Shown here piece after piece: positions 21,674 through 31,692 of a stretch of 64,000 bases of DNA. Both the position numbers and the translations under genes were made by a program. Location: contig JAKVBX010000001.1 in NCBI GenBank assembly GCA_022446795.1, forward strand, positions 89,357 through 153,356, written 5' to 3'. Position 1 is the first letter of the stretch, and each line of letters begins with the position of its first letter. The notes below the pieces were generated by a model that saw nothing but the letters and a program-made list of their open reading frames with translations, made no database searches and had not been told where the DNA came from. The stretch is from Phycisphaerales bacterium. GTDB lineage: Bacteria > Planctomycetota > Phycisphaerae > Phycisphaerales > SM1A02.

Positions 21674-23140
21674 CTAGGCCGATGCCACGTCGAGACCGAG
21701 CTTGCCCGGGCAGAGGATGCCGTTGGGATCAAGACCAGTCTTGATGCCCTGCAGCATGACCATGCCGCCTTCACCCAGTTGATCACCCAGGTAGTCATTC
21801 AGCCGCATGCCCACCCCGTGATGGTCATTGATCACGGCCCCTGACTCCAGCGCCGCTTCGGTCGCGGCCTTGACGATGGCGTCATGCAGCCCAAGCGCCT
21901 CATCACGATCATCCGGCCCCTTGGGAACGCCGAACCGCGGATAGATCATCGACCCCCATGGGTACCAGTGGGAGAAGTGCGTCTTGAGCGTCATGTTCCA
22001 CTTCGGATCGATGGCGCCCATCATGGCCTCGGTAACGGCGTCATAGACGCCGCGGATATGGGCGAAGTCCGCCACCACGTCCATCGTCGCCCAGATCTGC
22101 GGAAGCTCGGGCGCATGGGGCGGATAGTAGAAGTCGTAGCGACGCTTCCACCAGATCTCCCCGGCTTCCGAACCATGGTCGATACCACCGTGCTTCAGGC
22201 ATTTCTCGATTCCGGCCGCCGCCTCGGCCTGGACGACCGAATCCACATCACCATCGAACATGAGCACCATGGCGGCCCGGTCGATCCCGCACTCCACGGC
22301 TCGTTCCAGTGAACCCGTTGCGGCAGCCTTGTCGTAGAGCCGCATGACCGGCGGACGAAGTCCATCCACCATGATCTCTCGACCAGCGGCAATACCGGCG
22401 TCCAGGTCATCGAAGAGCAGGCATCGGAAAATACGCGTTGCCGGAACCTGCCGCAGGGCGACCGTCGCCGCCGTCACGATGCCCAGCACGCCCTCGGCAC
22501 CGACGAAGAGCTGCGTCAGTTCCGGTCCAGCGGCATGCCGCGGCACGGCTGGCGTATGGACGATATCCCCCGTGGGCAGGACAACCTCGACGCTGAGAAT
22601 GTGTTCCTCGATCTTGCCGTACTTGGTCGACAGCACGCCGCTCCCTCGCGCCGCAATGCAGCCGCCGAGGGTCGCCCACTCGGCCGACGCGGGATAGTGC
22701 GTGAAGGACAGACCGTCAGCATTGAAGCCTGCTTCCAGCTCACGGATCACGTGGCCGGCTTCCACGACCGCGGTCATCGACTCTCGATCGACGGTCCGAA
22801 CCTTGTTGAGACGCTTGAGCGAGACGACGATCCCGCCTCGATCCGCATTGGCGGCGCCCTGGACCCCGGACCCACCGCCGAAGGGCGTCACCGGAACACC
22901 CAGCCGATTGGCCAGGAGCACGATCTCGGAAACCTCCTCGGTGGTGCTGGGAAACACCAGGGCATCCGGCCGACTGAGCGGCTTGCCGATGGCCGCCGCC
23001 GAGATGGTCAGCCAACTCATGTCACCGGTGTGAACCTTGGCGGCCGCGTCCCGATCCAGGACATGGTCATCACCCACGATCCCCGAGAGCATCTGCACGA
23101 GTGACGCCGTGGCGCCGGGATCAAGCGTTGAGGTATCCAT
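21674..23140 (-). CDS. FAD-linked oxidase (GlcD-like)
   Basis: A 488-residue cytoplasmic flavoenzyme of the FAD_binding_4/FAD-oxidase_C family (glycolate oxidase subunit D, D-lactate dehydrogenase and alkylglycerone-phosphate synthase relatives). The FAD PP-loop stretch VPVTPFGGGSGVQGAAN is at about residues 75-91 and the family ending GILCPGKLGL is present. The start ATG 23140 is preceded by GGAG; the frame extends 18 codons further. It is the last gene of a four-gene minus-strand operon with an isomerase, a UPF0261 protein and a creatininase-like enzyme, so it likely oxidises a 2-hydroxyacid intermediate of that pathway. The substrate is unknown. Confidence 0.85.
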   Translation of the reverse strand: MDTSTLDPGATASLVQMLSGIVGDDHVLDRDAAAKVHTGDMSWLTISAAAIGKPLSRPDALVFPSTTEEVSEIVLLANRLGVPVTPFGGGSGVQGAANADRGGIVVSLKRLNKVRTVDRESMTAVVEAGHVIRELEAGFNADGLSFTHYPASAEWATLGGCIAARGSGVLSTKYGKIEEHILSVEVVLPTGDIVHTPAVPRHAAGPELTQLFVGAEGVLGIVTAATVALRQVPATRIFRCLLFDDLDAGIAAGREIMVDGLRPPVMRLYDKAAATGSLERAVECGIDRAAMVLMFDGDVDSVVQAEAAAGIEKCLKHGGIDHGSEAGEIWWKRRYDFYYPPHAPELPQIWATMDVVADFAHIRGVYDAVTEAMMGAIDPKWNMTLKTHFSHWYPWGSMIYPRFGVPKGPDDRDEALGLHDAIVKAATEAALESGAVINDHHGVGMRLNDYLGDQLGEGGMVMLQGIKTGLDPNGILCPGKLGLDVASA

Positions 23141-23159
23141 TGGACTCCGGGCCCTTTCG

Positions 23160-24173
23160 TCAGGTGGACATTGTCTTGCCACTGGTCCAGTCACGGTTGT
23201 GAACCTTGACCTTCACCTTCTCGAGTTCGTGGACCGCATCGACCAGGTGATTGCTGAAGCGGCGGAAGGCCACCTCACCCTTGCCCGCGGTGCCACGCTC
23301 CGGATTGCCCATGACCCCGGACTCCGTGAACTCGGCATGCTCGAATGGGAAGTTGAAGTACTGGTAGCCCTGGAACTCGGCGTCCGGCATCCCGTCCTTC
23401 TTGGCCCAGGCGTCGCCCAGCCACTTCGGGGCATGGGCTCGCGAGACGGCCGCACGGTCCATGCGGACCATGGTGGGATCGTGACAGAGGCACTGGCTGG
23501 TTTCCAGTTCACCGGCGTGCCACCCCGGGGTCTCCTCCACCGGTCCCTCGAGAACGTCCTTGAGCATCCCGATGTACCGCTCGGCATAGGGCTTGTAATA
23601 ACAGATCAGTGCGCCGGTCTCGTTCCGAAGCTTGCGAAGGACCGGATCGACGACCTTGACATTGGACCCGTGGCCGTTGACGAAGATGAGCCGGTTGAAG
23701 CCATGGTGAATCAGGCTGCGACCGATGTCGTAGAGCAGGTTGGTATACGTTTCCGACCGAAGGGTCACCGTTCCGGTTCCCTGCCCGGGCTCACGCATGT
23801 GCTGGGGCGAATAGCCAAGCCACAGTGGCGGCGTGTACATGATCCCGGCCTGTTCACCAGCGCGGCTGGCAACCTCCAGCGACGTGATCGTGTCGCAATA
23901 CAGGGGCAGGTGCGGGCCATGCTGTTCCAGGCTCGCCTTGGGAATCAGGATGGTGTCGGAGTGCTTGAGGTACTCGGCCACGTCCACGCAGGTGAGGTCG
24001 CCCAGGCAGAAGGATGGAAAGTCCAGGCCAAGCGTCTTGCGTCGTGGCGCATGCGCCTCATCCTGGTAGATCTTCTCGCCGGGCAGTTCCTCGCGAGACA
24101 GTCCCGCCATTCCGTTCGGGCCGCCCTCGCCACCCTGGTTGCCAAGCGTCCGTACCGTGTCCTTGCGACTCAT
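23160..24173 (-). CDS. creatininase family amidohydrolase-like protein
   Basis: A 337-residue protein of the creatininase/creatinine amidohydrolase family, which includes creatininase, MftE and other metal-dependent hydrolases. The metal-binding segment is visible as PKASLEQHGPHLPLYCDT (Glu, His and Asp ligands), followed by FVNGHGSN and HAGELETS, the second and third conserved blocks. The N-terminus carries about 55 extra residues before the core, with a Gly/Asn-rich start. Its ATG overlaps the stop of the upstream UPF0261 gene (TGA inside ATGA at 24170-24173). It probably opens a lactam, lactone or amide in a catabolic route; the true substrate cannot be read from sequence. Confidence 0.85.
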   Translation of the reverse strand: MSRKDTVRTLGNQGGEGGPNGMAGLSREELPGEKIYQDEAHAPRRKTLGLDFPSFCLGDLTCVDVAEYLKHSDTILIPKASLEQHGPHLPLYCDTITSLEVASRAGEQAGIMYTPPLWLGYSPQHMREPGQGTGTVTLRSETYTNLLYDIGRSLIHHGFNRLIFVNGHGSNVKVVDPVLRKLRNETGALICYYKPYAERYIGMLKDVLEGPVEETPGWHAGELETSQCLCHDPTMVRMDRAAVSRAHAPKWLGDAWAKKDGMPDAEFQGYQYFNFPFEHAEFTESGVMGNPERGTAGKGEVAFRRFSNHLVDAVHELEKVKVKVHNRDWTSGKTMST

Positions 24174-25456
24174 CCAGGTTCTCCTTCCGCGTGGGAAGGC
24201 CCCACCTTACGGTGCCCGGCCACGCTTCGCCATGCGGCCAGCACCGCCTTGGCACAATCCTGGTCATTGATGTGGGCATCAACTTCCACGAGTTCGATCT
24301 CATCACTGAGCTGATTCCGCAGGAGGTCGCGAAACGCCCCGCTGATGGCCGCGTCCTGGAACTCAGCGCCGGGCGCGTCCGGTACGGACAGCCCGCCCAT
24401 GGGAAGCACGATGACCACCGGCCCCCGGGCGTCATTCACGCGAGTCACCAGCCGCCGCCCCACCTCGAGTTGCTCCTCGGCGGTCAGCCGAACCAGGGTG
24501 AACTTGGGATTGTGATAGTGGCTGGGCCGGCCCTGCTTGTCCTCGGGAATCTCGGTCCGGGGACCATGAACCGTGAAATCGACACATCCCGGAACGATGA
24601 CCTGGGGCAGCCCCAGTCGGCCGGCCTCGACCAGCCGCGTCCGATCGGCACAGACGTGGAACCCCCCGGCCACCTCCCCGGCCAGTTCGCTCAACGTGTA
24701 ATCAATCACCCCGGTGAAGTGACCAGCCAGAACAGCTTCCTCCATGGCCGCGCCACCAACGCCATTGGCATGGAAGATCACCAGTTCCTGCTGTTCAGCA
24801 GCCAACTGCTCGCGGATCCACATCAGGGGCCTGGTGGTGTTGCCGAGCATGGTGGCCGCCACCTGCTGCCCACCGGCATGAGCACCGGGCAGCCCGGAGC
24901 GGGAATGAAAGGCGATGGCCATGCCGGCGATCGCCGCCGATGCATTCTCAAAGATCTCCATCGCAATCGAGTTGAGTCCAAGGATGTCCACCACCGAGTG
25001 CATGACCGTCACGTCGCGGGTTCCGACGAAAGGATCGAAGATGCGCCGCCCGGAAGCGATGGGCGAAACCAGCAGCTTGGGGAGACCCACCGGAAGTTGC
25101 GTCATGGTGGCTGCCGCCAGGACGGATCCCTCGGCACCGCCAAGCGCCACGACGCCGTGAAGGCGGCCCTCGTCAAGCAACCGCTGGCCGATGACCTGCA
25201 CGCCCTTGAGCATCTGCTCGATGGCTGCGCCACGGGAACCAGCGTCGCGCAGGGCCTCGATGGTTGTGCCCGCGGCTCGAGCCGCCTCCTCGCGGGAGAT
25301 ATCGGGGACGACTCCCTCGGGACCTCCGAGGATGCCACAGTCGAGAATGATGGTGTCACAGCCCCGCTGTCGAATCCCCTCCGCCAGCACCCGGGTCTCG
25401 GGCCCCTTGGTATCCAGGGTGCCGAGGCACAGGACGGACGGCCGCTGTTCGCTCAT
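24170..25456 (-). CDS. UPF0261 / Tm-1-like ATP-binding domain protein
   Basis: A 428-residue protein of the UPF0261 family, related to the N-terminal ATP-binding part of the tomato Tm-1 resistance protein. Conserved features are the opening VLCLGTLDTKGPE, the GVVALGGAEGSVLAA glycine-rich stretch, and PKLLVSPIASGRR. Bacterial members often stand beside a phosphoenolpyruvate hydrolase-type partner, which is absent here. Its start overlaps the stop of the isomerase gene by 4 bp (25453-25456) and its stop overlaps the creatininase-like gene. The enzymatic role is not established; a nucleotide-dependent step in the same pathway is my inference. Confidence 0.85.
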   Translation of the reverse strand: MSEQRPSVLCLGTLDTKGPETRVLAEGIRQRGCDTIILDCGILGGPEGVVPDISREEAARAAGTTIEALRDAGSRGAAIEQMLKGVQVIGQRLLDEGRLHGVVALGGAEGSVLAAATMTQLPVGLPKLLVSPIASGRRIFDPFVGTRDVTVMHSVVDILGLNSIAMEIFENASAAIAGMAIAFHSRSGLPGAHAGGQQVAATMLGNTTRPLMWIREQLAAEQQELVIFHANGVGGAAMEEAVLAGHFTGVIDYTLSELAGEVAGGFHVCADRTRLVEAGRLGLPQVIVPGCVDFTVHGPRTEIPEDKQGRPSHYHNPKFTLVRLTAEEQLEVGRRLVTRVNDARGPVVIVLPMGGLSVPDAPGAEFQDAAISGAFRDLLRNQLSDEIELVEVDAHINDQDCAKAVLAAWRSVAGHRKVGPSHAEGEPG

Positions 25457-26349
25457 GAAACCGCTTGGGGCAGGCAGGACTTGAGGTACTTGGCAGTCTG
25501 TTCGAAGGAAGCGCTGTAGGTCTCGTTGTCCTGGAGATCACTGCCGTGATCCCGGATGAACTTCAGCTCCTCGGCCGAGCCCTCGGTCCCGGCATCCTTG
25601 GCGGCGCCGCCGAGCGGAGAACGATCTGCCGGATTGACGAACTCGGTCGTCAAGCAACCGGTGTAGTTGATCTCATCCAGGGTCTTGAGCAGCTTCTTCC
25701 AGTCCCAGGCCCCTTCACCGGGCGCCCGGCGGTTGGTGTCTGCGATGTGAAAATCGTGCAAGCGGCTGCCCACGGCCCGAATGGCCTCGTAGGGATCAGC
25801 CTCCTCGATATTGATATGGAAGGCATCCAGGCAGACGCCGATGTCGTCGCCCACGGCATCCGCCAGGCACAGGGCCTGGTCATGACGATTGAGGAAGTTG
25901 GTTTCGAACCGGTTCAACGGCTCCAGCGCAATCCGGACATCCTGCTGGCGAGCGTGGTCGGCCACCCGGTTGAGGCTCTCGACCGCCCACTTCCACTCGA
26001 TCTCGGGATCCGCCATGGGCGTGATCTTGCCGACCTCGCTGGGCACGATGCACATCACTTCACCACCGAGTTCGTGCACCATCGTGATGCAGTCCTTGAG
26101 GTACTCGATGGACCCCAGCCGCAGGTACTTGTCGGCGTGAATCAGATCGCGGCACTGGAGCATGATGGACACGGCCCCCCAGCATCGGACGCCGTGCTTC
26201 TCAAGCAGCTTCCGCGTCTCGCGGGGCTCGTACTTGTCCGGTTCGCCCATGATCTCGATGCCCTCGTAGCCATAGCGGGCCAGGCGTTCCAGCGTGATCT
26301 CCAGCGGTTCCGGACGCATCCAGTTGTGAGCGGCCAATCGCAGGTCCAT
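25453..26349 (-). CDS. sugar phosphate isomerase/epimerase (TIM barrel)
   Basis: A 298-residue AP-endonuclease-2-type TIM barrel of the sugar isomerase/epimerase superfamily. The usual metal ligands can be read from IALEPLNRFE (Glu), VCLDAFHINIEE (Asp, His), LHDFHIADTN (His) and LTTEFVNP (Glu). ATG 26349 has an excellent ribosome site (AAGGAG, seven bases away); an upstream frame of 19 codons lacks one. It is the first gene of a four-gene coupled operon and would interconvert a keto-sugar or sugar acid. The conserved TATAGTGGGGG element lies 33 bp upstream. Confidence 0.88.
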   Translation of the reverse strand: MDLRLAAHNWMRPEPLEITLERLARYGYEGIEIMGEPDKYEPRETRKLLEKHGVRCWGAVSIMLQCRDLIHADKYLRLGSIEYLKDCITMVHELGGEVMCIVPSEVGKITPMADPEIEWKWAVESLNRVADHARQQDVRIALEPLNRFETNFLNRHDQALCLADAVGDDIGVCLDAFHINIEEADPYEAIRAVGSRLHDFHIADTNRRAPGEGAWDWKKLLKTLDEINYTGCLTTEFVNPADRSPLGGAAKDAGTEGSAEELKFIRDHGSDLQDNETYSASFEQTAKYLKSCLPQAVS

Positions 26350-28417: not shown

Positions 28418-29193
28418 AGATCCTCTTCACGATCATGGCTGCCGGCATCGTGTCCACGATCGGCTCGGCTGACACCTTCTACGGATCCGGTGACGCGGCG
28501 ATTCCCGATGGCGGATCCAGCGGAACCGCCTGGACCTTCGACGTGACCAGCGAGGGCCTCGTGACCGACGCCCGCGTCTTCGTGCAGGTCAACCACCCGT
28601 GGGTCGGCGACCTCCGACTGCAGCTCCAGGCCCCTGATGGTGTCTCCGTCACGCTCATGGATCGACCCGGCATGCCCGAGGGCGGTTGGATCGGTCCCTG
28701 GGGATGCGGTGGCGACGACATCAGCGGCATGTTTACCGACGCCGCCGATGTCACGGCCGAAGCGATGTGCTCCACCACCGAGGTTCCCGTCCTGCATGGC
28801 AACATGCTGCCCGCCGAGCCACTCTCGGTGCTCGACGGCCACCCCGCCCAGGGCACCTGGACGCTGACGGTCTTCGATGATTCCCCGGTCGATGCCGGTA
28901 CCGTCCAGTTGCTGTCGGTGATCCTGGAGACCGCGCCTGACTGCAATGGCAACGGCGTCCCCGATGGAGATGACATCGCCGATGGTTCATCGCCGGATGC
29001 CAACGGAAACGGCATCCCGGACGAGTGCGAATGCCCGGGTGACCTCAATGGCAACGGCCAGGTCGACGTCGATGACATGTTGCAGGTCCTCGGCGACTTC
29101 GGACAGGCCGGTGGTCCCGGCGACCTGGATGGCAGCGGTGAAGTGGATGTCGCCGACATCCTGATCGTGATCGGGAACTGGGGCAGTTGCTAG
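28414..29193 (+). CDS. P-domain protein with dockerin-like C-terminus
   Basis: A 259-residue secreted protein. After a signal peptide ending GSA, residues about 25-175 form a proprotein-convertase P domain: the signature VQVNHPWVGDLRLQLQAPDG and the closing GTWTLTVFDDSPVDAGTVQ are clear. P domains usually accompany subtilases and stabilise or target them; here no protease domain is attached. The C-terminus has Asp/Asn-rich loops and two dockerin-like repeats (NGNGQVDVDDMLQVL, GSGEVDVADILIVI) ending NWGSC. It overlaps the hydrolase gene and shares a CTAG stop overlap with the convergent DJ-1 gene. It may be a binding accessory for the hydrolase. Confidence 0.85.
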   Translation: MKILFTIMAAGIVSTIGSADTFYGSGDAAIPDGGSSGTAWTFDVTSEGLVTDARVFVQVNHPWVGDLRLQLQAPDGVSVTLMDRPGMPEGGWIGPWGCGGDDISGMFTDAADVTAEAMCSTTEVPVLHGNMLPAEPLSVLDGHPAQGTWTLTVFDDSPVDAGTVQLLSVILETAPDCNGNGVPDGDDIADGSSPDANGNGIPDECECPGDLNGNGQVDVDDMLQVLGDFGQAGGPGDLDGSGEVDVADILIVIGNWGSC

Positions 29194-29765
29194 ACCGCGG
29201 CGCCGTTGAGGATTTCACTGAACGCCCGCATCCACGGGGCGTTGCTCATCCACGTTGAGGCGGTCACCAGGACACCATCAACCTCGATGCCGTCCAGTCC
29301 ACGGTCCACCCAGTTGGCACCGGCCATCTCGACCTCCGGGCGACAGAATGGAACGGCCGTCACGGTCCGACCCGGCAGGACACCGGCCGCCGCCAGGATC
29401 TGGATGCCGTGACAGGTGCAGGCCACCGGCTTGGACGACTCGAAGAAATGGCGAACCACGTCGAGGATGCGGTCGTCGCACCGGTGGTACTCCGGGGCAC
29501 GTCCGCCCGGCACGACCAGCGCGTCATAGGTGGTGGCATCGATCGAATCGAAATCGTGCGTGACCGGGAAGGCATGCCCCCGGGCCTCGGTGTAGGTCTG
29601 GAGCGAGGTGTCCGACAGATCGTGCACGGCCGTCACGACACTGGAGCCGGCCGGCTTCCCGGGTGAGACCGAGTGAAACTCGTGCCCGAGCATCTCCATC
29701 GCCTGCTGCGGGAACCGGACCTCGAGGTCCTCGTTGTAGTCACCGACGATCATCAGGATGCGCAT
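29190..29765 (-). CDS. DJ-1/PfpI family protein
   Basis: A 191-residue cytoplasmic protein of the DJ-1/PfpI superfamily. The nucleophile elbow is ACTCHG with Cys 118 followed by His 119, and Glu 13-Asp 14 near the N-terminus takes the conserved acidic position. ATG 29765 is preceded by AAGGAG; the longer frame lacks a ribosome site. Members act as glyoxalases, deglycase-like or stress proteins, or proteases; this cannot be resolved here. A TAGGCT box lies 32 bp upstream. The gene converges on the P-domain gene with overlapping stops. Confidence 0.85.
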   Translation of the reverse strand: MRILMIVGDYNEDLEVRFPQQAMEMLGHEFHSVSPGKPAGSSVVTAVHDLSDTSLQTYTEARGHAFPVTHDFDSIDATTYDALVVPGGRAPEYHRCDDRILDVVRHFFESSKPVACTCHGIQILAAAGVLPGRTVTAVPFCRPEVEMAGANWVDRGLDGIEVDGVLVTASTWMSNAPWMRAFSEILNGAAV

Positions 29766-29816
29766 GGCTCTTCTCCTTGCCGGGTCGCGGCACAACAGCC
29801 TAGCCGACACCGGACC

Positions 29817-31202
29817 TCACGGCGTGCCCGGGGCCGGTGTCCACGTGTCAGGAAGCCGAAGATCATCTCCCGACGCAACCATCTGCTTCGCCAGGTCACG
29901 GGCCATCCGGGCCACGCGTTCCGGGTGATCCGCCGCCACGTTTCGCTGCTCGTGAGGATCGGTTTCCAGGTCATACAACTGCACCAGTCCGACGGCGGGA
30001 TACGCGATCAACTTCCACCGCGATTCCACCAGGGCACGCTGGCCGTCGCGGTAGTGCAGCACCAGTTGCGTCCGCTTGCCGGTCTCGAGGTGACGACCGT
30101 GCAGGTCCTTCGGGTGATCCAGGCCCGCCTCGTCCAGCAACCATGGCACGGTGTCATGCAGGTACACCAGGCTGTCGCGACGTTCACCGGGCGTGATCCC
30201 CGGCCCCGCCACCACCAGGGGAGCGCCCATGCTGTGCTCGTAGAGGTTCTGCTTGCCCAGCAGCCCGTGGCTGCCCATCCCCAGGCCATGATCCGCCAGG
30301 AACACGACGATCGTGTCGTCGGCTCGGCCAGCGTCTTCCAGCGACGCCAGGATGCGACCGATCTGGCTGTCCATCTGTTCGATCATGCCGTAGTAATCGC
30401 CCAGGTGTCGCCGCAGGGCCTCCGGTGTCCGTGGCCACGCTTCCAGCTTCTCATCACGGATCCTGAGTTCCCCGTTATCGAAGGGATGCTCGGGCAGCAC
30501 GTTGGGCGGCAGTGTCAGCGTCGCATCGTCATACGTGCTGCGAATGGCCGCCGGCGGTGTCCGGGGATCGTGGGGTGCCGTGAACGACACCCAGGCCAGG
30601 AACGGCTCGGACGAATTGGCATTGGTCGAGATGAACTCGATGGCGGCATCGGCGAAGCCGGTACTGGAGAAGGCCGGCATCGCCCGGCTGTCCGCCTTGG
30701 GGTACATGCCGGTCGGATCGAACGAGTGGACCTTCAACCCCTCGTGCGGACCCATGCCCCCGAAGAAGATGGCCTCGCCCTCGTCGAAGCAGGTTTGAAA
30801 ATGCGGCTTCCTCTGGTGCCACTTGCCGGTAGCAAACGTCCGCCACCCATGGCGACGAAAGAGCTCCGGCAGCATGGGCGGCACCGGTTCACCAGTCGCC
30901 GGCCCCCACGGCACCAGGACGTCCTGCGGGATCTCGAACCGGCTTCGGCCCGTGAGCAGCATCGCCCGGCTGGGCGCACACACGGCCCCGGAGTTGGAAC
31001 CCATGCAGTACGCCCGGTCATAGCTGCGGCCCCTGGCCATCAAGGCATCGAGATGCGGGGTGCGGACATCCGGATTGCCGTTGGCCCCGATCGCATCCGG
31101 CCGAAGATCATCCGCGATCAGGACCAGCACATTGGGGCGCGTGTCGGCGGCACCGCCGACCGCCATCATGGCCAGGAACAGGACTGTCAGCGGGAATCGC
31201 AT
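29817..31202 (-). CDS. type I sulfatase (iduronate-2-sulfatase-like)
   Basis: A 461-residue exported sulfatase. After a signal peptide, the metal pair Asp 31-Asp 32 (LIADDLRPD) and the active-site signature CAPSR (Cys 75, to be converted to formylglycine) are intact. The GKWHQRKPH and FLADHGLGMG blocks complete the family pattern, and the arrangement resembles iduronate-2-sulfatase-type enzymes. It would remove sulfate esters from polysaccharides in the periplasm or outside. The maturation enzyme is not in the window. ATG 31202 has a TANNNT box eight bases upstream and no well-placed ribosome site. Confidence 0.9.
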   Translation of the reverse strand: MRFPLTVLFLAMMAVGGAADTRPNVLVLIADDLRPDAIGANGNPDVRTPHLDALMARGRSYDRAYCMGSNSGAVCAPSRAMLLTGRSRFEIPQDVLVPWGPATGEPVPPMLPELFRRHGWRTFATGKWHQRKPHFQTCFDEGEAIFFGGMGPHEGLKVHSFDPTGMYPKADSRAMPAFSSTGFADAAIEFISTNANSSEPFLAWVSFTAPHDPRTPPAAIRSTYDDATLTLPPNVLPEHPFDNGELRIRDEKLEAWPRTPEALRRHLGDYYGMIEQMDSQIGRILASLEDAGRADDTIVVFLADHGLGMGSHGLLGKQNLYEHSMGAPLVVAGPGITPGERRDSLVYLHDTVPWLLDEAGLDHPKDLHGRHLETGKRTQLVLHYRDGQRALVESRWKLIAYPAVGLVQLYDLETDPHEQRNVAADHPERVARMARDLAKQMVASGDDLRLPDTWTPAPGTP

Positions 31203-31210
31203 GGCTCCCG

Positions 31211-31216
31211 AGCATA
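31211..31216 (-). promoter_or_regulatory. TANNNT box 8 nt before a start codon
   Basis: On the minus strand TATGCT lies eight bases before ATG 31202. The only purine stretch, GGAG, is two bases from the ATG and too close to act as a ribosome site. Confidence 0.4.
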
Positions 31217-31236
31217 CCCCGGGGCGGGCATCTGGG

Positions 31237-31242
31237 TACCGT
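31237..31242 (+). promoter_or_regulatory. TANNNT box 6 nt before a start codon
   Basis: TACCGT lies six bases before ATG 31249 with no Shine-Dalgarno. The same hexamer at the same spacing precedes the gene starting at 15116 on the minus strand. Confidence 0.45.
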
Positions 31243-31248
31243 GTCCGC

Positions 31249-31692
31249 ATGACGACCGATGTCCTGACATGGCACGAGCTTCCTCCGATCCCCGACCGCG
31301 TGGACGAGCCCTGGGAAGGATTCGACTGGACGCGATGGGAGGCCATGCTTCACGAGCGTGGTGCCGTCATTGACCGACCGGCGCGCACCGCTCACCCGGA
31401 CCATCCCTCGATCATCTACCCGATTGACTATGGCCATCTCCCCGGTACGCGCGGCGGCGATGATCACGAGGTCGACGTGTGGTCCGGAACGGGAGCCGCT
31501 GGTCTCGTGGGCGTCATCATCACCCGCGATCACGTCAAGCAGGACCGGGAAGTCGACCTGCTCTGGAACTGCACGCCGGCCGAGGTGTACCTGGTCAATG
31601 GATTCGTGAACTTCGACCAGGACCTGCTGGAAGGCCGCCTGCTGCTTCGACAGGCCATGCGCCACCAGTGGTCCCAGGTCCTTGCCAAATGA
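31249..31692 (+). CDS. inorganic pyrophosphatase-like protein
   Basis: A 147-residue cytoplasmic protein related to family I soluble pyrophosphatases, as shown by IIYPIDYGHLPGT followed by DDHEVDVWSG. In classical enzymes the signature is D-x-D-P-x-D-V; here the central Asp is replaced by His (DDHEVDV), and the protein is shorter than the usual 175 residues. It may still bind metal and pyrophosphate, or may have a changed function. It is divergent from the sulfatase gene, with only 46 bp between starts, and appears to have a leaderless-type promoter. Confidence 0.7.
   Translation: MTTDVLTWHELPPIPDRVDEPWEGFDWTRWEAMLHERGAVIDRPARTAHPDHPSIIYPIDYGHLPGTRGGDDHEVDVWSGTGAAGLVGVIITRDHVKQDREVDLLWNCTPAEVYLVNGFVNFDQDLLEGRLLLRQAMRHQWSQVLAK

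Follow-up and report, generated by a model that had tools for sequence, protein, structure and literature searches.

A conserved, uncommon operon of Planctomycetota that defines a creatininase-partnered branch of the UPF0261 family

Organization of the operon

The stretch of DNA analysed here (the window) comprises 64,000 nucleotides of a Phycisphaerales bacterium of the phylum Planctomycetota (GenBank assembly GCA_022446795.1, contig JAKVBX010000001.1, positions 89,357 to 153,356 of the forward strand), whose draft genome, coded G000, is 96% complete. Within it lie four open reading frames (ORFs), arranged head to tail on the minus strand and spanning 21674-26349, that encode a TIM-barrel isomerase, a protein of the UPF0261 family, a creatininase-like protein and a protein linked to flavin adenine dinucleotide (FAD) (Table 1). 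This operon is a real, conserved and uncommon unit, and it marks out a branch of UPF0261 whose partner is creatininase-like. An earlier, sequence-only description of the locus (hereafter the original prediction) had given the four-gene run, its two 4-bp overlaps, its limits and the 19-bp gap that separates the creatininase-like gene from the FAD gene, all of which match the ORF positions and the sequence. All four proteins exceed the curated cut-offs of their Pfam families (AP_endonuc_2, the UPF0261 N and C domains, Creatininase, and FAD_binding_4 with FAD-oxidase_C). Shine-Dalgarno-like stretches stand upstream of the isomerase gene (aaggaga) and of the creatininase-like gene (aaggag), and none is evident in the sequence preceding the UPF0261 start, which in our reading fits translational coupling.

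Table 1. Genes and junctions of the four-gene operon, in positions of the window
Feature	Position	Strand	Evidence
TIM-barrel sugar isomerase/epimerase (PF01261), first gene of the operon	25453..26349	-	PF01261 154 bits
UPF0261 protein (PF06792 + PF23189), likely ATP-dependent kinase	24170..25456	-	Pfam 171.3 and 207 bits (cut-off 27 each)
Creatininase-family protein, probably a metal-dependent hydrolase (PF02633)	23160..24173	-	Pfam 196.6 bits (cut-off 31.3)
FAD-linked oxidoreductase, GlcD / alkyl-DHAP synthase type (PF01565 + PF02913)	21674..23140	-	Pfam 133 and 82 bits
4-bp ATGA shared by the isomerase stop and the UPF0261 start	25453..25456	-	sequence
4-bp ATGA shared by the UPF0261 stop and the creatininase-like start	24170..24173	-	sequence

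Conservation and distribution of the four-gene set

All four genes were found together on one strand at seven other loci (in genomes G035, G026, G170, G201, G360, G260 and G169), the genomes being of the same phylum and falling into four coded families. The order UPF0261-creatininase-FAD is kept in 8/8 loci, window included, with the isomerase gene first in six and last in two (L045 and L046). That the genes form one unit, with the four families co-occurring elsewhere and their order conserved, is thus borne out, apart from the isomerase gene having moved in two cases. When the loci are ranked by identity to the window proteins, the four genes give roughly similar rankings, as common descent of the set would predict. 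The UPF0261 protein itself changes much faster than its three operon neighbours, being 68% identical to that of the genus-mate G035 versus 88-91% for the others. UPF0261 relatives of at least 50% identity form a separate group, the next relative standing at 43%, and 33 more distant UPF0261 loci (L047-L079) matched neither the creatininase-like nor the FAD protein at E<=1e-4.

Across 392 genomes of the phylum, in searches that score few candidates per genome and whose counts are therefore lower bounds, a close creatininase relative (E<=1e-60) was found in at least 7, window genome included, and in all seven of these a UPF0261 gene lies within 4 kb of it, a pairing that goes beyond chance. An FAD relative at the same threshold was present in at least 11. 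Both relatives occur in six genomes, every one of which contains the cluster (6/6). The seventh creatininase genome, G388, possesses UPF0261 beside the creatininase-like gene in a different arrangement (L080), and the five remaining FAD genomes (six places, L081-L086) had no UPF0261 gene in the stretches fetched. Among 61 genomes drawn from the family of the window, 8 gave a UPF0261 match (E<=0.001) and three, the window genome counted, reached at least 60% identity, so that the operon has a patchy distribution. G169 alone matched among 121 genomes from its order, a search of 349 genomes around that of a Rhizobiales locus returned no creatininase relative at E<=1e-45 (lacking a positive control, this result is uninformative), and a scan of genome contigs with UPF0261 yielded one distant locus. 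Among the titles and abstract openings listed in searches of the open literature, none gave a description of the four-gene set.

A DeoR-type regulator gene lies upstream of the operon in three genomes (one recognized by Pfam, the others by 59-84% identity), and among further genes of some copies G170 and G201 each have another TIM barrel, with a Zn-dehydrogenase also present in G201. Sulfatase genes occur near the operon in G170, G201 and the window, a proximity to which we give little weight because sulfatases are common in Planctomycetota. In the window, DJ-1/PfpI and sulfatase genes (29190-31346) lie on the strand of the operon, upstream of it past two plus-strand genes.

Partners and phylogeny of UPF0261

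We surveyed 107 UPF0261 loci, window excluded, counting two near-identical Thermus plasmids separately; 11 further places were not fetched with wide flanks. Within 4 kb of the UPF0261 gene, 77 loci carried a TBST gene (PF09370), 10 a creatininase-like gene, none both and 20 neither. The TBST partners were on the strand of UPF0261 in 77/77 cases and within 500 bp of it in 73. Yang and colleagues (PMC5028733) report that UPF0261 is present in 491 of the 504 bacterial genomes that have TBST, describe the two as showing correlated evolution, and give a distribution of UPF0261 that takes in bacteria, archaea, fungi and plants. Searched for PF09370, the drafts of G000, G035, G026 and G388 (84 to 96% complete) gave no match. 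G170, G201, G360, G260 and G169 contain between one and three matches each, and several of these PF09370 genes adjoin a second UPF0261 gene.

A quick tree, computed from 107 rows without bootstrap, places the UPF0261 proteins of the four-gene loci in one clade of 8 rows (SH-aLRT 100), which the Thermus/G388 type joins with a support of 83 that may reflect a long-branch effect. An alignment of conserved positions (107 rows, window protein included) gave two markers for this clade, P132 and an inserted F140, both present in 8/8 rows and elsewhere in 0/99 and 1/99 rows respectively. Residue N206, considered as a mark of creatininase-linked UPF0261 proteins (10/10), was rejected, being found in 6/77 TBST rows and 4/20 other rows as well.

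A second arrangement that joins the creatininase-like and UPF0261 genes is found on Thermus plasmids and in G388. Six Thermus records head the match list, and the two that were examined carry a creatininase-like gene (49% identical to that of the window), UPF0261, a class II aldolase and tripartite tricarboxylate transporter genes, together with a divergent GntR regulator, a Zn-dehydrogenase, a CBS protein and a TIM-barrel gene. G388 has a single run of creatininase-like (68% to Thermus), aldolase, UPF0261, Zn-dehydrogenase, TctC-type and TctA genes. These look like clusters for the uptake and breakdown of a carboxylic compound. Searches by tblastn (E<=1e-5 and 1e-6) detected neither the isomerase nor the FAD gene of the window in these clusters, nor the Thermus TIM barrel in the four-gene loci.

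The notion that every UPF0261 gene lacking a TBST neighbour has some other bond-breaking partner was unsupported across the 20 such loci: 14 inspected by eye showed mixed neighbours, and probes from L065, L079 and L081 found no match near UPF0261 in the other 18. Bond-breaking neighbours were seen at L065 (7243-9291), where UPF0261 adjoins an HpcH/HpaI-type aldolase gene (PF03328, 110 bits), and at L079 (6435-10960, in G388), where RuBisCO-like, RpiB, triosephosphate-isomerase-type and class II aldolase genes come after a divergent UPF0261 gene, while a metallo-beta-lactamase-type gene (by Pfam) and sugar-transporter-like ORFs (by eye) come before it. The L079 gene set, among whose five ORFs scanned by Pfam there was no kinase, resembles OiaX/erythrulose-phosphate routes.

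Predicted activities of the four proteins

The predicted model of the window UPF0261 protein (predicted local distance difference test, pLDDT, 91) aligns with the plant protein Tm-1 (3wrw) at Z 41.7, with a root mean square deviation (rmsd) of 4.6 over 390 residues. It has the same fold as Saro_1862 of Novosphingobium aromaticivorans (9mpy, with acetovanillone bound), which comes closest among solved bacterial proteins; 388 residues superpose with Z 32.9 and rmsd 9.1, and the structural alignment shows 31% identity. The next fold match, UDP-GlcNAc 2-epimerase (Z 11.9), concerns the N domain, and DUF1537-type kinases were absent among the best 50 structure matches listed, an absence that excludes nothing. 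The window protein retains all 16 of the family-conserved positions checked, and it has the same residue as Saro_1862 at 27 of 31 conserved positions picked by us.

Acetovanillone use in N. aromaticivorans is reported to begin with MarK, a single-component kinase. Other acetovanillone routes are described as employing the two-component kinases HpeHI and AcvAB, HpeI being an ATP-grasp protein of a different family (PMC9618137, PMC12167813, PMC13101465). Saro_1862 and MarK are very likely one protein, and for this reason the ATP-linked step that the original prediction had assigned to UPF0261 may fairly be inferred, the kinase activity coming from MarK and the identity of the two proteins from us. 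Its remark that the family lacks a settled function has been overtaken to this extent, UPF0261 now having, so far as we could find, one likely biochemical assignment. A cluster on a Thermomicrobium roseum plasmid (L094, 7998-17164), with genes annotated as UPF0261, phosphoenolpyruvate (PEP) hydrolase (TBST), PEP/pyruvate-binding, PEP-utilising, FAD-binding and fumarylacetoacetate hydrolase, may bring UPF0261 together with HpeHI-like parts.

The best solved relatives of the isomerase are D-tagatose 3-epimerases, and its residues E143, E149, D175, H201, R207 and E236, as expected for the metal and acid-base residues of a ketose 3-epimerase, are invariant in 8/8 loci; we take their catalytic roles to be those of D-tagatose 3-epimerase. 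Its best NCBIfam match, IolO (5-keto-L-gluconate epimerase), scores 138.9 bits, below the cut-off of 300. The creatininase-like protein likewise falls below the cut-offs of its NCBIfam matches (creatininase, 109.3 bits versus 235; MftE, 96.5 versus 172; IolN, 81.3 versus 245). E83, H85, D94, E222 and E224 are invariant in 10/10 sequences and H168 is present in 8/10, all six of which we assume to have metal-site roles.

Among proteins of solved structure, the FAD protein is closest to alkyl-dihydroxyacetone-phosphate (alkyl-DHAP) synthase (6.4e-45) and to glycolate oxidase (8.4e-41). It has matches to vanillyl-alcohol and eugenol oxidases at about 1e-16, and reaches 179.3 bits against the GlcD model of NCBIfam, short of its cut-off of 567.9. 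In GlcD/GlcF pairs, with which it has FAD domains in common, a CCG-domain gene accompanies the FAD gene, and such a gene lies between the FAD and isomerase genes in L045 and L046. The window operon has no CCG gene among its ORFs, so its electron acceptor may differ. The two places with FAD relatives that were annotated (L081 and L083; the remaining four were left unannotated) share FGGY kinase, KduI/IolB and class II fructose-bisphosphate-aldolase genes, with GH4-type and isomerase genes recognized by eye, and perhaps represent a separate sugar or cyclitol route. Given the CCG gene in L045 and L046 and the sugar-type company in L081 and L083, the FAD protein would most likely be a dehydrogenase acting on a hydroxyl of a sugar-like compound.

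Proposed pathway and alternative explanations

The catabolic context originally suggested for the operon is supported; the other elements of that suggestion (a sugar acid or lactone as the substrate, a ring or amide opened by the creatininase-like protein, oxidation of a 2-hydroxyacid) stay conjectural, that protein reaching none of the cut-offs of its three NCBIfam matches. We give about an even chance to the reading that the four genes are one catabolic operon, most likely degrading a sugar-acid-like compound. The FAD enzyme would oxidize a hydroxyl to a ketone, beside which the TIM-barrel enzyme would isomerize or epimerize by way of an enediol; UPF0261 would then phosphorylate an acidic or enolic hydroxyl in an ATP-dependent step, and the creatininase-family enzyme would hydrolyze a C-C, ester or amide bond. 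We infer both the order of these steps and a carbohydrate-type substrate, the latter from the epimerase matches, the sugar genes of L081 and L083, and the aldolase, Zn-dehydrogenase and transporter genes of the Thermus and G388 clusters. A wider proposition seems possible, if rather improbable when taken as a whole: UPF0261 would be a broad single-component kinase family for acidic (enolic or phenolic) hydroxyls, partnered with varied bond-breakers (TBST, creatininase-like, class II aldolase, RuBisCO-like and HpaI-type), and the operon would encode a route not yet described, with the creatininase-family hydrolase splitting a phosphorylated sugar-acid intermediate.

A number of observations weigh against sugar-acid catabolism with a UPF0261 kinase step. 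The NCBIfam function-model cut-offs are reached by none of the isomerase, the creatininase-like protein and the FAD protein, and the genes flanking the operon are non-catabolic by Pfam (P-domain, M6 peptidase and thioredoxin-type, with one lacking a family). The expected metal ligand H168 is replaced by Q in L045 and L046, and a model of the creatininase-like protein from a 9-row alignment (mean pLDDT 59.7) was too poor for a fold search. The equation of Saro_1862 with MarK is our own, and a kinase leaves the role of TBST in the majority of UPF0261 loci unexplained. Since the Thermus and G388 clusters do not share the isomerase and FAD genes, what they can tell is limited to UPF0261 and its creatininase-like partner.

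The substrate of MarK is a phenol, so UPF0261 could act on aromatics in this operon too. Degradation of a phenolic or other aromatic compound, with UPF0261 phosphorylating a phenol like MarK and the FAD protein acting like vanillyl-alcohol or cresol oxidases, would accord with the acetovanillone bound by the sole bacterial UPF0261 in the structure list and with the oxidase matches of the FAD protein. Those matches are however far weaker than the ones to alkyl-DHAP synthase and glycolate oxidase (about 1e-16 versus 1e-45 to 1e-41), and a TIM barrel of the tagatose-epimerase type would be odd in an aromatic route; we consider this explanation unlikely. We think no better of an inositol route like that of Thermotoga, in which the creatininase-like protein would, like IolN, hydrolyze a C-C bond of a diketo-cyclitol, the TIM barrel would epimerize 5-keto-L-gluconate like IolO, and UPF0261 would phosphorylate an intermediate. 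The operon shares with that route a creatininase-family hydrolase and an epimerase-type TIM barrel, IolO and IolN figure among the NCBIfam matches, and KduI/IolB-family genes lie near two FAD relatives. Yet both matches are below their cut-offs, generic creatininase outscores IolN, the operon adds UPF0261 and FAD genes, and in the conserved four-gene set no IolG/IolM-type gene was noticed, although no search aimed at them was made.

Slightly less probable again is that UPF0261 does not act on the pathway substrate and binds nucleotide so as to assist or regulate the creatininase-like hydrolase, in the manner of Tm-1, which is reported to work as a binding inhibitor (PMC5028733). That one of two partner genes stands beside UPF0261 in 87/107 loci would suit such a role; the retention of every family-conserved position checked in the window protein, and the binding of a catabolic substrate by a bacterial member (Saro_1862), argue against it.

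Comparison with known systems

MarK/Saro_1862, taken as one protein, is like the window protein in fold, in most of the picked positions and in a catabolic role, and differs in its modest identity and in its ligand, a phenolic ketone. With the UPF0261-TBST pairs and the plant Tm-1 fusion (PMC5028733), the operon shares the UPF0261 family and tight pairing of neighbours, whereas its partner is creatininase-like and its genome has no PF09370 match in the draft. A further parallel is the D-threonate/erythronate (otn) route, whose logic of dehydrogenase, TIM-barrel isomerase, kinase and class II aldolase comes nearest to the Thermus arrangement; that route employs another kinase family, whereas the window operon possesses no aldolase and carries the creatininase-like gene.

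Significance

A small recurring operon with a fixed second partner turns the function of UPF0261 into a testable substrate question. The Thermus version carries its own transporter binding protein, of the TctC type (L092, 17718-18665), which could be screened for its ligand. If the kinase reading is true, it would offer a guide to annotating the much larger UPF0261-TBST group.

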